64,000 bases of DNA from Rubripirellula sp. (GTDB taxonomy: Bacteria; Planctomycetota; Planctomycetia; Pirellulales; Pirellulaceae), in assembly GCA_012270065.1 (NCBI GenBank), contig JAAXJB010000039.1, forward strand, positions 392,479-456,478, in the 5' to 3' direction. Of this stretch, positions 21,024-59,049 are shown piece by piece. Position numbers and translations under genes: made by a program. How positions within the stretch are numbered: the stretch's first letter is position 1; each line of letters opens with the position of its first letter. The notes under the pieces were generated by a model. The model made no database searches. It worked only from the letters and a program-made list of their open reading frames with translations, and was not told where the DNA came from.

Positions 21024-21329
21024 TCAGCGTACGAAAACTGCGCTGGCCTGAACGACGCGACGCTTGCTAGCTGCGCTAGCACTTGGGTCAACAACTGGTG
21101 CTGGCATTGGAGCGGCAGTTGCACCTGACTCGCAGCCACAAGCTGGCTCGCAACCGCAAGCTGGCTCTTCGCAACCACAAGCTGGCTCGTCACATCCAGT
21201 GTCACAACACTCGGCGGAGCTTCCACAGCCCTTCACGCCAAGCATACGATCTAAAAGGTCAAACCCGAAACTCTGGCTGCACAGAGTACAACCAAGAACG
21301 AGTGCCATTGTCATTATTGTCCGCTTCAT
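21024..21329 (-). CDS. small secreted Cys-rich repeat protein
   Basis: A 101-residue protein with a signal peptide (MKRTIMTMALVLGCTLCSQSFG), then a Cys-rich centre with about fourteen Cys and the repeated unit CG-CE-(E)PA (positions roughly 45-70), and an Ala/Pro/Ser-rich tail ending RRVVQASAVFVR. The frame is open farther upstream, but the ATG at 21329 gives the signal peptide and has AGGGAGA in front. Similar MKR...FGFDLLDRMLG...CGC proteins are common in Planctomycetota; none that I know has a proven function. Metal binding, disulphide-rich structure, or a cell-wall role (planctomycete proteinaceous walls are Cys-rich) are all possible. A strong terminator follows. Confidence 0.8.
   Translation of the reverse strand: MKRTIMTMALVLGCTLCSQSFGFDLLDRMLGVKGCGSSAECCDTGCDEPACGCEEPACGCEPACGCESGATAAPMPAPVVDPSASAASKRRVVQASAVFVR
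21133..21189 (-). repeat. three-fold 18-bp repeat coding the PACGCE units
   Basis: Near-identical copies at 21133-21150, 21151-21168 and 21172-21189 (core AAGCTGGCTC on the plus strand) encode the repeated Pro-Ala-Cys-Gly-Cys-Glu segment of the Cys-rich protein. The near identity at DNA level suggests recent duplication. Confidence 0.75.
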
Positions 21330-21444
21330 TGGAGCTATGTCTCCCTTAATCTCAACTTGGCGGTTAAGTGTCGGTATGTCGTCACCGCATTTGGCGTGTT
21401 TCCACTCTTGCTGCGAAAAAAGCCTTCCATTGAGGTGCATTCGA

Positions 21445-21542
21445 TGGACGAAGTCGCCGTCGAGCACACCTCGGGTTTGCTCCGACAAACACAAACGGGT
21501 CGGGTGCGGACACCCGGCCCGCCGACTTCGTTCAGTTTGTCG
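21445..21542 (+). ncRNA. candidate cloverleaf-like structured RNA
   Basis: Hand folding gives a four-way junction. P1 pairs 21445-21456 with 21523-21534 (12 pairs, one G-U). P2 pairs 21460-21464 with 21470-21474 (one U-G, five-base loop). P3 pairs 21475-21479 with 21486-21490 (six-base loop). P4 pairs 21496-21506 with 21511-21521 (11 pairs, one U-G, CGGA tetraloop). All three wobble pairs are G-U only on the plus strand and would be A-C on the minus strand. Bases 21483-21490 are also perfectly complementary to 21535-21542, giving an alternative eight-pair helix or pseudoknot. It is not a tRNA: arm sizes and loops do not fit. On the minus strand it would lie in the leader of the Cys-rich gene. 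Confidence 0.45.
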
Positions 21543-21602
21543 TTCTCGCTGCCGGCAACGGTTAGGTCGCCGCAGAATCACTCGTAATTGGTAACGCCAT
21601 GT

Positions 21603-21627
21603 GATCCTGACATCCCATGTCAGGATC
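21603..21627. repeat. perfect 11-bp inverted repeat, 3-base loop
   Basis: GATCCTGACAT, CCC, ATGTCAGGATC. It is fully symmetric, has no T-run on either side, and lies 70 bases beyond the cloverleaf candidate. It could be an operator, a processing hairpin or part of the same transcript. Confidence 0.6.
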
Positions 21628-22062
21628 CCTGGGTCTATCACAAGAAGTTGAATTTGGCCTTGAGGCCGAAACCCATTTCATTTGCGATCTGTATCCGTAT
21701 CGACGCTGAGAGGTCTGTGAATCAGTGTTCCATGGGATTTTCGCGCTGTTGGAAAGCTTTGCCGATTAGGGGTTTTTTGCGGTTTTTCTCGAGGAATAGC
21801 GTTCCTCTGCTCCTGCGCGTGGCGTATTTGCTCCAATCGGTATAAAATCAAGCGTGCTGTCAGGTTCGCGTGTGATGCACGCACAAGGTGCATTGCCGGG
21901 ACCGAGTCCAGGTGAGTAGGCGAGTACCCGGCTGTGCGTGAGCACCCGGACGCGGGCGACTGCTGATACAGCATCCCACGTACCTTGCAGGAAACATGCC
22001 ACATTCGCTTTGAACCCACCATTTGGAATCTCCGGCCATCATCCCCTTGGTAAATCCCAACC

Positions 22063-22431
22063 TTGCCAACCGAGCCAACCGTTGTCGATTTGACTGCCCT
22101 GCCGGGTGTCCCCTGCCCTTGCGGCATTGCTAGGCGGGCTTTTGCCGATCAGGATGAGTTCCCGGGTACAGTACACCTGACTGAAATCAGCACGGATGCA
22201 CGAGAGCACTATCACAAGGAGCACACTGAAATTTACGTCATCTTGGCGTGCCAACCCGATGCAGCCATCGTGTTGGACGGACGGAAGATTCCTGTCTCAC
22301 CGCACCATGCCATTCTGATTCCGCCAGGAGTACGACACCGCGCGGTGGGAAAAATGACAGTATTGATCTTGTGTACACCAAATTTCGACCCAACAGATGA
22401 ACATTTCGACGCTTCACCTGTACCTGATTAG
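22063..22431 (+). CDS. cupin-fold protein
   Basis: A 122-residue single-domain cupin. Motif 1 is visible as HYHKEHTEIYVILACQPDAAIVLDGR, with the His/His/Glu metal ligands, and motif 2 as HHAILIPPGVRHRAVG with the last His ligand. The substrate is unknown; such proteins range from isomerases to dioxygenases and sensors. The start is a TTG at 22063 (an in-frame stop lies four codons before it and no ATG precedes motif 1). It stands alone, downstream of the large non-coding stretch and 70 bases before the beta-propeller gene. Confidence 0.8.
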   Translation: MPTEPTVVDLTALPGVPCPCGIARRAFADQDEFPGTVHLTEISTDAREHYHKEHTEIYVILACQPDAAIVLDGRKIPVSPHHAILIPPGVRHRAVGKMTVLILCTPNFDPTDEHFDASPVPD

Positions 22432-22501: not shown

Positions 22502-23362
22502 ATGCGTTTCCGTTTCGACCTCATGAGCCGTTGCCTCACATTTGCGATATTTGCTTTTGCCTGCAGTGTGACACCTGCAGCCGCTGCTCACTGGCCATGC
22601 TGGCGTGGCCCCACACTTGATGGTCAAGCCCAAGCATCAGAACTTCCCGAGGACTGGGATCCCGCCGGCGACGAAGGCAGCAATGCGCTCTGGATGAGGG
22701 AAGATATCGGTGGGCCTTGCACACCAATTGCCATGAAGGGCCGGATTTACACGATTCAACGCTCCATGCCGTCAACGGAACGTGAAGGAGAGAAGGTAGT
22801 CTGTCTCGATGCTGCCACCGGCAAGACTCTGTGGGAGAACGCATACAACGTATGGCTATCCGATGTCCCTGCTGAACGCATCGGTTGGAGCAGTGTTGTG
22901 GGTGACCCGGAGACGGGCAATGTCTGCGCCTTGGGAGCGTGTGATATTTTTCAATTCATGAATGGCGAAACACTGTGGAGCATCCCGCTACATGAACAAT
23001 TTGGCATGCTCACTACATACGGTGGGCGAACAAACTTTCCGATCATCCATGAAAACCTTGTGATCATCAGCGGCATCATCATCAATTGGGGAGACGCTGC
23101 GAAACTGAATCACCGATTGATCGCAATCGATAAGAAAACCGGTGAGGTGATCTGGTTCAATGGAACCCGGGATCTTCCATTTGACACCACCTATTCAGCC
23201 CCAAGTTTGGTAACGATTGACGGCCAGAGACACGTGATCATGGGTGCCGGCGATGGCGCCATCCGGGGTTTCCAGCCCAGGCCTACAGGGAAACGCGAAA
23301 GTTGCAGAGTTGTACCTCGACAACGTCGAGGTAACACCGAATGCTTAGGAGCCATGATTTAA
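22502..23362 (+). CDS. PQQ-like beta-propeller protein, C-terminally truncated
   Basis: Exported protein with a signal peptide (LTFAIFAFACSVTPAAAAHWP) and the planctomycetal PQQ-like start WPCWRGPTLDGQA, followed by propeller blades (KVVCLDAATGKTLWE, LIAIDKKTGEVIWFNGTRD, GQRHVIMGAGDGAIRGFQPR). Up to about residue 262 it matches the family; the expected continuation TGKxxW and the remaining blades are missing and the last 22 residues (starting PTGKRESCRVV) look like read-through in a wrong frame. In the +1 frame the same DNA reads GNAKVAELYLDNVEVTPNA and then stop, which resembles a natural C-terminus. A deletion with frame loss is the likely cause, so the product may be non-functional. Confidence 0.75.
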   Translation: MRFRFDLMSRCLTFAIFAFACSVTPAAAAHWPCWRGPTLDGQAQASELPEDWDPAGDEGSNALWMREDIGGPCTPIAMKGRIYTIQRSMPSTEREGEKVVCLDAATGKTLWENAYNVWLSDVPAERIGWSSVVGDPETGNVCALGACDIFQFMNGETLWSIPLHEQFGMLTTYGGRTNFPIIHENLVIISGIIINWGDAAKLNHRLIAIDKKTGEVIWFNGTRDLPFDTTYSAPSLVTIDGQRHVIMGAGDGAIRGFQPRPTGKRESCRVVPRQRRGNTECLGAMI

Positions 23363-56818: not shown

Positions 56819-57985
56819 CTATTCAACCAGCATGACTGGCGTCAATAAATGACTTGAGTGGTTCTGTCCTGACCAATCAACTTTGATCCCTCGACCAACC
56901 ACCGTCGCCGGCTGCACAATGACCCTCTTCTGACTTTTCTTTCCTGTTAACTTGACGTCAAGAATTCGAACCCCTTCAAACTTTACAATTGTGAAGACTG
57001 AATTATTGCCCTGGCCAGAGACTTCTGTGAATATTGGCACGATCCGCGTCTTTCCAATCAAACTGGCCAGCTCATCTTTGATACCTGCACTGATCCCGGT
57101 ATCTCCATTGAGATGCAACTCACCATGTTCATCAAATACCAATGGCTTTCCCAGATCCACAAAGTCCTGACGGGAGATTCCATGAAGGATCTGACGAGCC
57201 AGATCGTTTGTACTGTTGTTTGAATCCCCAATATCCACTGTTCCGCGATTACCTGGTGCCCCAGTGCCTTTTGGATACAGGTTGGTCTCAAAAATACCAT
57301 CACTCCCCGCGACAACTTCGCCATTTTCCATCATGTAGTCATCTACGGTGCTGCCAGCTACAGCAGCCTCCCAACTATCAAGGTCCAAGGCGAGTGGCAG
57401 GATCCCGCGGGTCTCATGAACCGTAGGCGGCTCGAAAAAACCTGCGACGGAGCTGAACATCGCTGCTATGGCAGTCGTTTTCAATTCCTGACTTTCACGG
57501 CCTGTCAACGCTGCGTAGAACAGTGGTAATTCAGTATTTGTGCCGTTGTCTCTTCGCAGGGTAATCCGGACTGCTTGTGCCTCACTGACATTCGCCAGAC
57601 TCCATCCGGTAACTGGATCATATTTTCCCAGTTCGACATCCGCTTGTGTTACCAAGGGTGTGATTTCACCTACATGATTGTTGGCAGCAACATGATTCGC
57701 TGCGTCCGCTACAAGTAAAGGTAAATTATTACCCAACTCAGCACTTTCTGCGCGTTGCGCAAATATCTCCCAGCAACCCGCCATGGCTGCAGCATCTGCC
57801 GATCGCCGTAATTCTGTTTCGGCCACATGGATGTAACCAAGGTCAATTGTGATTGCCATCAGAGTTGCGAGGGTAACCATAAGGAATACACCCAGGACAG
57901 CGGCTGCTCCACGATGCAAGTGCTTCCCCGGAAAGCGCTTCACCGGACTATCCAATGAACCGCGTGCTTTATCTTCATTCGTCAT
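56819..57985 (-). CDS. TadG-like (putative Flp pilus assembly) protein
   Basis: A 388-residue protein. The start at 57985 has GGAG eight bases upstream. After a basic region, RGAAAVLGVFLMVTLATLMAITIDLGYIHVAETELRRSADAAAMAGCW is the TadG-type helix and the post-helix segment of the 'Tad' domain; the rest is a predominantly beta periplasmic region. An ATG at 58030 overlaps the preceding stop and would add 15 residues that spoil the N-terminus. TadG-like proteins help anchor or assemble Flp pili. It precedes tadE-like by 36 bases. Confidence 0.87.
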   Translation of the reverse strand: MTNEDKARGSLDSPVKRFPGKHLHRGAAAVLGVFLMVTLATLMAITIDLGYIHVAETELRRSADAAAMAGCWEIFAQRAESAELGNNLPLLVADAANHVAANNHVGEITPLVTQADVELGKYDPVTGWSLANVSEAQAVRITLRRDNGTNTELPLFYAALTGRESQELKTTAIAAMFSSVAGFFEPPTVHETRGILPLALDLDSWEAAVAGSTVDDYMMENGEVVAGSDGIFETNLYPKGTGAPGNRGTVDIGDSNNSTNDLARQILHGISRQDFVDLGKPLVFDEHGELHLNGDTGISAGIKDELASLIGKTRIVPIFTEVSGQGNNSVFTIVKFEGVRILDVKLTGKKSQKRVIVQPATVVGRGIKVDWSGQNHSSHLLTPVMLVE

Positions 57986-57993
57986 TGCTGTAT

Positions 57994-57997
57994 CTCC
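57994..57997 (-). promoter_or_regulatory. ribosome binding site deciding the TadG-like start
   Basis: GGAG on the minus strand, eight bases before the ATG at 57985-57983. It favours this start over the ATG at 58030, which sits in a TAATG overlap with the preceding gene. Confidence 0.65.
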
Positions 57998-58029
57998 AGG
58001 CAGACAAGGAAACTTGTAGCAGAAGTCCA

Positions 58030-58692
58030 TTAGAAATTTTCAAGTTCAAGGTTCTGGTTTTCAGCAAGAACCTCAACACGACCATCTGTGTAAAAGCGTC
58101 TCACAGCTTTGAGAGTGACACGGGAGACGCGGTTCTTACCGAAACCAATATCAACATTCTCAATACTCTGCTGATAACGGTAATTCGCAAGATTCACGCT
58201 GTTTCCGGGAATCATTCGCACCAGGTATCCTGCCCCACCAAAGTTTCCCCAATCGCGACCGTAACCATCGCGAACCGCGTACCACGTACTTTGGTTGATT
58301 ACTGCCATGACGCTTGTCCAGCGGATGCAATCGTCGTCGGTGGTCAGATTCTTTCGCGTCGCACTGCGCGTCTCGTCCACGGCGCGGTCTTCCATCAGTG
58401 CCGCAACATGGAAACCGCCGCTCGAATAATCATCAGCCGCGTGATAATTCATTTGCAGCTGAAAATAACTGTCGTCCAACAGATGGTTGGGCGACATGAA
58501 GAAAGTGATCTGTGGAGAATTGTTGGTTGCATCGGGTTCATTCACCACGAGCTCCCAATCCTCTTCGATCTTGTAGACCGATGGCTCTCCAGCAAAAGCC
58601 ATCTGGGCTATCGGGCTTCCAAAGAGCCCAAGCGTTAACCCAAGAAGTGCCAAAATCGGCTTGCGCAGCAAGGCGCCACTACGATGCAACAT
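58030..58692 (-). CDS. exported protein of unknown function in the Tad cluster
   Basis: A 220-residue protein with a signal peptide (ALLGLTLGLFGSPIAQMAFA) and a beta-rich mature part (EDWELVVNEPDATNNSPQITFFMSP, YFQLQMNYHAADDYSSGGFHVAALM, TWYAVRDGYGRDWGNFGGAGYLVRM, RVEVLAENQNLELENF). The pattern with a Trp-Glu-Leu-Val-Val start resembles lectin or laminin-G-like sandwiches; I cannot name a family. It is the first gene of the Tad cluster and its stop overlaps an ATG of the next frame. Confidence 0.75.
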   Translation of the reverse strand: MLHRSGALLRKPILALLGLTLGLFGSPIAQMAFAGEPSVYKIEEDWELVVNEPDATNNSPQITFFMSPNHLLDDSYFQLQMNYHAADDYSSGGFHVAALMEDRAVDETRSATRKNLTTDDDCIRWTSVMAVINQSTWYAVRDGYGRDWGNFGGAGYLVRMIPGNSVNLANYRYQQSIENVDIGFGKNRVSRVTLKAVRRFYTDGRVEVLAENQNLELENF

Positions 58693-58759
58693 CGTTACGC
58701 TCCCAAACTAGAGTGACTCAAGGTCAATCCTTCAATTCAACCGTTCGGCGGTCTGGCGA

Positions 58760-58775
58760 TCCGTCAATTGACGGA
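58760..58775. promoter_or_regulatory. 16-bp perfect palindrome upstream of the Tad cluster
   Basis: TCCGTCAATTGACGGA, about 70 bases upstream of the first Tad-cluster start on the minus strand, in the 357-base gap that also precedes moeA. It could bind a dimeric regulator. The rest of the gap (58693-59049) holds no credible gene. Confidence 0.45.
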
Positions 58776-59049
58776 CCCATGACTTTGCGTCCCACACTTA
58801 CGTGTGGTTTGCCTTTATCGTGGAGAATAAAGTGGAGAGCGGAAGAAGATGAAAAAGTTGACTTGCCAATGGAAACCTTATGCCAACTGTTCCCAACAGG
58901 CGGCTACTTTACAGGTCAATTGTCGTACGTGTTTGATAATGACTCTCAGCTATATGCAATTTGACGGTTGTAACGATTAGTCGAATTACTTAAGTTTCGC
59001 GGCGCAAAGACCCGTTTAAACGCCATCCCATCGAAGTAAAACGCCAAAA

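Follow-up and report, generated by a model that had tools for sequence, protein, structure and literature searches.

The 733-nt region at positions 21330–22062 of the window (the whole 64,000-nt stretch of Rubripirellula sp. DNA that was analysed) holds a structured RNA, whose helices H1, H2 and H3 covary beyond shuffled columns. Its core is conserved in part of the Pirellulaceae, with one copy per genome. To judge from the sequences of the homologues, the RNA is most likely made from the minus strand, and we consider it likely that it acts in cis, as a regulatory 5′ leader on the mRNA of a Cys-rich secreted protein. This leader (21330–21690, minus strand) would be about 350–360 nt long, with its 5′ end placed provisionally; it has a low folding energy and would enclose H1 to H3, two further hairpins (P4 and P5) and a small hairpin at the ribosome-binding site.

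Helices of the core and a candidate kissing contact

The region lies between the minus-strand Cys-rich gene (21024–21329) and a plus-strand cupin ORF (22063–22431). Within it, the initial annotation had proposed a structured RNA at 21445–21542, drawn as a plus-strand cloverleaf. As to the presence of a structured RNA it was right: the complementary stretches lie where it had placed them, homologues exist, their helices covary, and both strands of the segment fold below all 200 shuffled controls, at −52.1 kcal/mol for the plus strand (z = −4.88, 0/200 shuffles as low) and −45.8 kcal/mol for the minus strand (z = −3.04, 0/200). For the 733-nt region, z was −3.62 on the plus versus −2.28 on the minus strand. 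The minus strand of 21327–21690, corresponding to the leader, reached −139 kcal/mol (z = −4.54, none of 100 shuffles as low).

Covariation in H1 to H3 was counted on 52 homologues, left from 76 loci after redundancy was removed at 93% identity; the wobble counts for H1 to H3 and the competing-helix counts used the same set. Read on the minus strand, 84.7% of the alignment cells were paired and 26 of the 34 pairs varied on both sides. H1 (21432–21472, minus strand, CGACTTCGT) is a hairpin whose stem has 8 + 7 pairs and whose loop has 9 nt; nine of its 15 pairs showed two-sided change and 88.9% of cells were paired. H2 (21484–21541, minus strand) is a 7-pair helix joining 21535–21541 with 21484–21490, with two-sided change at six of its seven pairs and 80.2% of cells paired; it encloses H3. 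The pairing of 21483–21490 with 21535–21542, which had been suggested as a switch or pseudoknot, is this covarying helix. H3 (21495–21522, minus strand) is a 12-pair hairpin, with two-sided change at 11 of 12 pairs and 81.6% of cells paired. Altogether 256 two-sided cells were found versus a shuffled mean of 78.8 (0/500 shuffles as high, and at most 69 when the helices were slid along the alignment); the homologues being related, covariation and wobble cells are not independent of each other.

Among 20 homologues of the genus, the three-helix model paired 93.2% of cells and counted 38 two-sided ones, versus 82.3% and 14 for a minimum-energy fold like that of the initial annotation. The cloverleaf was kept only in part. 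Its 11-pair hairpin is H3 and covaries, but of the two energy-model hairpins inside it one is paired in just 65.4% of the cells and the other in 44.1%. The complementarity of its 12-pair closing helix is present, but nine of the 12 pairs never vary among the 20 genus homologues, and only 4 of the 52 minus-strand homologues have it, as an ordinary helix, in their minimum-energy fold. As a conserved fold the cloverleaf was rejected on the two poorly paired hairpins and these 4/52 minimum-energy folds.

A kissing contact is the better reading of this closing helix. Once H1 and H2 have formed, the long helix is possible in that form only, and H1 forms in 52/52 homologues when both kissing strands are kept free. 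By complementarity, the H1 loop bases ACTTCGT (21448–21454, minus strand) would probably form about seven pairs with the strand ACGAAGT (21525–21531, minus strand), which lies between H2 and H3 and is likewise enclosed by H2. The five inner pairs are kept in 76/76 loci; one end pair shows one compensatory change, in a single locus (L096), and five A-C cells. Pairs so nearly invariant are weak evidence for the contact.

Upstream of the core, the further stems that had been predicted in 21600–21960 include P4 (21603–21627, minus strand), a hairpin whose loop carries GGA; this was seen in 68 of 76 loci. For P4, 105 two-sided cells were counted versus a shuffled mean of 25.5 and maximum of 49, on 44 distinct sequences among the 62 usable of 76 loci. 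P5 (21653–21670, minus strand) is a small hairpin with a changing stem, seen by eye in the alignments.

Distribution, gene linkage and strand

At the DNA level, a search of 40 relatives recovered every one of the 22 genomes of the genus, that of the window included, and a single genome outside it, weakly (G030, E = 0.008). A covariance model of the 114-nt core (21432–21545) hit each of the 22 genus genomes exactly once, on which ground a repeat or mobile element was rejected. Among 241 family genomes it matched 76, in 13 of 68 genera. A second, minus-strand model matched 104 of the 241, in 14 of 68 genera. In an order-wide sample the core model matched 31/346 genomes, two of them outside the family (G370 and G462), weakly and with no adjoining Cys-rich gene; in a phylum-wide sample the minus-strand model matched 2/392, both family members. 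Searches over more than 40 genomes were run with stricter filters, so the absence from other genera may be divergence. Named strains that carry the RNA include Rhodopirellula europaea, R. rubra, R. solitaria and Stieleria sedimenti.

A search by sequence pattern returned 116 stretches; among the 80 listed, 19 scored above 30 bits with the core model, all with planctomycete names. The best scores of the remaining listed stretches were 26.7 bits (Achromobacter) and 24.9 bits (Sphingobium). These and the other matches below 30 bits were attributed to chance, since complementary 7-mers are what the pattern selects for. In one of the 104 genomes (G126) an additional, weaker match had no Cys-rich gene (L257) and was counted as false; it was taken out, together with L267 and L268, before gene linkage was counted over 104 loci.

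In 102 of these 104 loci, a Cys-rich start codon with its ribosome-binding site follows H1 on the same strand at 67–102 nt (median 80); the exceptions are L113 and L239 (contig end). Among 28 family loci that had no part in model building, the Cys-rich gene was next in 27 and a contig edge in one. A tblastn search of 60 fetched loci found the Cys-rich gene in 59 and the cupin in 49. In genus g58 the cupin was missing from 8/8 fetched loci and the Cys-rich match was kept in 7/8. A terminator scan of 21300–22100 found no terminator-like site, and a run of five T between H1 and the Cys-rich gene was present in only 3 of 102 loci. The RNA thus stands on the same strand as one gene, at a short fixed distance and with no terminator found, as a cis-regulatory leader would.

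The same counts bear on a free-standing, trans-acting minus-strand RNA that lies upstream of the Cys-rich gene by position only, akin to the independent RNA implied by the initial annotation. Strong conservation in single copy would suit such an RNA, and so would the gap of 67–102 nt before the start codon, but the missing terminator, the scarcity of T runs and the linkage kept in 102/104 loci make it unlikely.

The linked gene in the window (21024–21329, minus strand, from the ORF list) encodes a 101-aa Cys-rich secreted repeat protein, MKRTIMTMALVLGC...FDLLDRMLG...EPACGCE repeats. By eye, such proteins have a signal-peptide-like start and a GFDLLDRMLG-like motif, followed by Cys-rich repeats; past residue 22 the median Cys content is 18%. 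No match was found in Pfam or NCBIfam.

Wobble pairs bear on the strand. The initial annotation had argued for plus-strand transcription from three G-U pairs; this fits the window sequence, but across homologues the balance reverses. Read on the minus strand, H1 to H3 contain 184 G-U versus 76 A-C cells, and, counted per position and genus, 84 cases with G-U only versus 33 with A-C only (binomial p = 2.7e-6, the cases being not fully independent). For P4, with both kinds of pair allowed, the figures were 76 versus 12 cells (68 versus 11 without duplicates) and 27 versus 1 per position and genus. H3 was more stable on the plus strand in only 20/76 homologues (in L066 it scored −18.8 on the minus versus −8.5 on the plus strand), and the 114-nt core was lower in energy on the plus strand in 33/76. 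P4 and H3 were given the most weight because they are the most variable.

An RNA made from the plus strand, either free or as a remote leader for the cupin gene, would agree with the better folding of the window's own copy on that strand relative to shuffles. H1 alone was more stable there in 52/76 homologues, the kissing pairs read on the plus strand gave 46 G-U versus 6 A-C cells, and RNAalifold on 22 genus sequences leaned slightly the same way (−126.8 plus versus −124.2 minus) without separating the strands. Set against this are the wobble balance in H2, H3, outer H1 and P4, the 11 of 60 loci with no cupin alongside, and a probable cupin promoter between the element and the cupin gene; we regard a plus-strand RNA as very unlikely.

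For the minus-strand leader, an ungapped conserved block at 21687–21774 (minus strand) is the probable promoter and regulator site. Its conserved patches were seen in 46 non-redundant loci (similarity score at least 20 plus a redundancy filter, which dropped most g58 and g23 loci; two rows, L100 and L101, are anchored at another place). A 15-base unconserved spacer precedes CGATA; in the window, 157 nt separate this motif from the core, which follows it. DNA-bound promoter elements show such ungapped conserved patches with an unconserved spacer; because the block resembles them, transcription is placed as starting near 21685 and would be driven from the block. By eye, CAAAGC and CCAAC/CCAAGC at 21739–21768 resemble a pair of direct half-sites of the kind that a dimeric regulator would use.

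On the plus strand, outside the leader, GTGGCG, 16 bases and TATAAA at 21819–21846 probably serve as the promoter of the cupin gene; the −10-like pattern was found by script in 39 of 76 loci and the −35-like part by eye. A sigma-70 consensus promoter scan gave no site on either strand and misses both 21687–21774 and 21819–21846. Further along the plus strand, a PQQ/BamB-like ORF (22502–23362) has 286 aa, and the open frame of its relative in L121 runs to 773 codons. Of this relative, only residues 23–289 are matched in the window, plus 729–773 in another frame; the shorter ORF is either a truncated gene or an assembly error.

Ribosome-binding site and candidate effectors

About 80 nt past H1, the sequence places the ribosome-binding site in a small GGAG/CTCC hairpin (21331–21344, minus strand) right before the start codon. 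Its stem has 4–5 pairs in 74 of 102 loci, three in 21 and fewer in seven, counts for which no control was run. As we picture it, the RNA folds P4 with its GGA loop, then the compact H2-H3-H1 domain, both shown by covariation; the kissing contact would probably join the H1 loop and the H2–H3 linker strand, and the leader would most likely govern how translation of the Cys-rich mRNA, and of this mRNA alone, is initiated, or how stable it is.

Among possible effectors, a CsrA-type protein is the most concrete. A dimer would bind the P4 loop and the GGAG of the ribosome site, a pair of sites that known leaders also combine as a loop site with a ribosome-site GGA, according to the available part of PMC7652899. 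The GGA of the 68/76 loci is apical in P4, and a triplet control on this loop gave GGA in 59 loci versus a median of 3 for triplets, the next being GAT (35) and TGG (30), which both overlap GGA. The GGA loop was also recovered in another 28 loci (the same script found 20, looser loop limits seven and inspection by eye one), and CsrA-family (PF02599) matches number 5–12 per genome in 7/7 genomes (G000 and six relatives). However, GGA is not enriched over the whole leader (7.5 versus 8.1 expected), and roughly 300 nt separate P4 from the ribosome site. By the binding preferences given in the available part of PMC7652899, the common P4 loops of 5 or 7 nt differ from the ANGGAN hexaloop, the A is in many loops one base too far from GGA, and the P4 stems are longer than most selected CsrA ligands. 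Control by CsrA is thus a possible, though doubtful, version of the leader.

A second version, a riboswitch in which a small ligand (a metal, redox or sulfur compound) alters access to the ribosome site, appears rather unlikely. It would account for the near-invariant unpaired bases of the compact H1-H3 domain and for the competing helix of the initial annotation lying within about 4.8 kcal/mol on average. Riboswitches usually occur in several gene contexts per genome, but this RNA has one; the competing helix is rarely the minimum-energy form (the 4/52 above), no terminator was found, and the Cys-rich product is the sole clue to a ligand.

Tentatively, and with considerable doubt, the leader might represent a new pseudoknotted family in part of the Pirellulaceae, in which the kissing-tied three-helix domain and the GGA-loop hairpin jointly gate the translation of a Cys-rich protein, exported or of the envelope, in answer to a dedicated CsrA-family member or a redox or metal ligand. 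According to the available part of PMC8567305, Cys-rich (YTV-domain) proteins are present in planctomycete cell-wall preparations. If the idea were true, the unusual planctomycete surface would be under RNA-level control. The leader itself would make CsrA function directly testable in a lineage with many CsrA genes.

Comparison with known RNAs

Rfam 15 (4227 families) gave no match at the locus at gathering score, and below it only E = 2.3 and 4.3. No tRNA or tmRNA was found in the window. The earlier statement that the RNA is none of tRNA, RNase P RNA and tmRNA therefore stands, no model matching at the locus. RNase P RNA, tmRNA and 6S RNA are likewise single-copy, conserved and structured, and were rejected one by one: RNase P RNA was found elsewhere in 7/7 genomes; tmRNA exceeded its cut-off elsewhere in 6/7, the window's genome giving only a match below cut-off, for which our guess is an assembly gap; and the Rfam 6S model matched 0/7 genomes (G000 and six relatives) and 5/14 control genomes. 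A CsrB-type sponge was rejected on the 7.5 versus 8.1 GGA per leader. Elsewhere in the window, a c-di-GMP-I-GGC riboswitch aptamer (RF03167, 66.4 bits) lies at 58743–58822 on the minus strand, about 50 nt upstream of a 220-aa ORF (58030–58692), which is followed by a 403-aa ORF (56819–58030).

The RNA is thus absent from Rfam 15 and, on present sequence evidence, probably belongs to a kind already known, the regulatory mRNA leader. The literature searched, part of it in excerpt, held no description of it, with only the Rhodopirellula-1 candidate motif possibly related by name. In the table of PMC2864571, this motif is listed for Planctomycetes with a cis-regulatory "y", and also for Proteobacteria, with no Rfam accession; the comparison is by table entry only.

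Riboswitches and pseudoknotted cis-regulatory leaders likewise precede a single gene and have several helices in a compact domain, along with unpaired bases that are conserved, but the RNA here matches no Rfam family and has one locus per genome. The CsrA/RsmA-regulated leaders of glgC, pslA and ymdA, as described in the available part of PMC7652899, resemble it in having a long 5′ leader, an upstream GGA hairpin loop and a ribosome-site GGA in a weak hairpin, and CsrA genes are present here. It differs from these leaders in loop size and A position, which are off the CsrA consensus, and in the large covarying kissing domain that lies between the two candidate CsrA sites.
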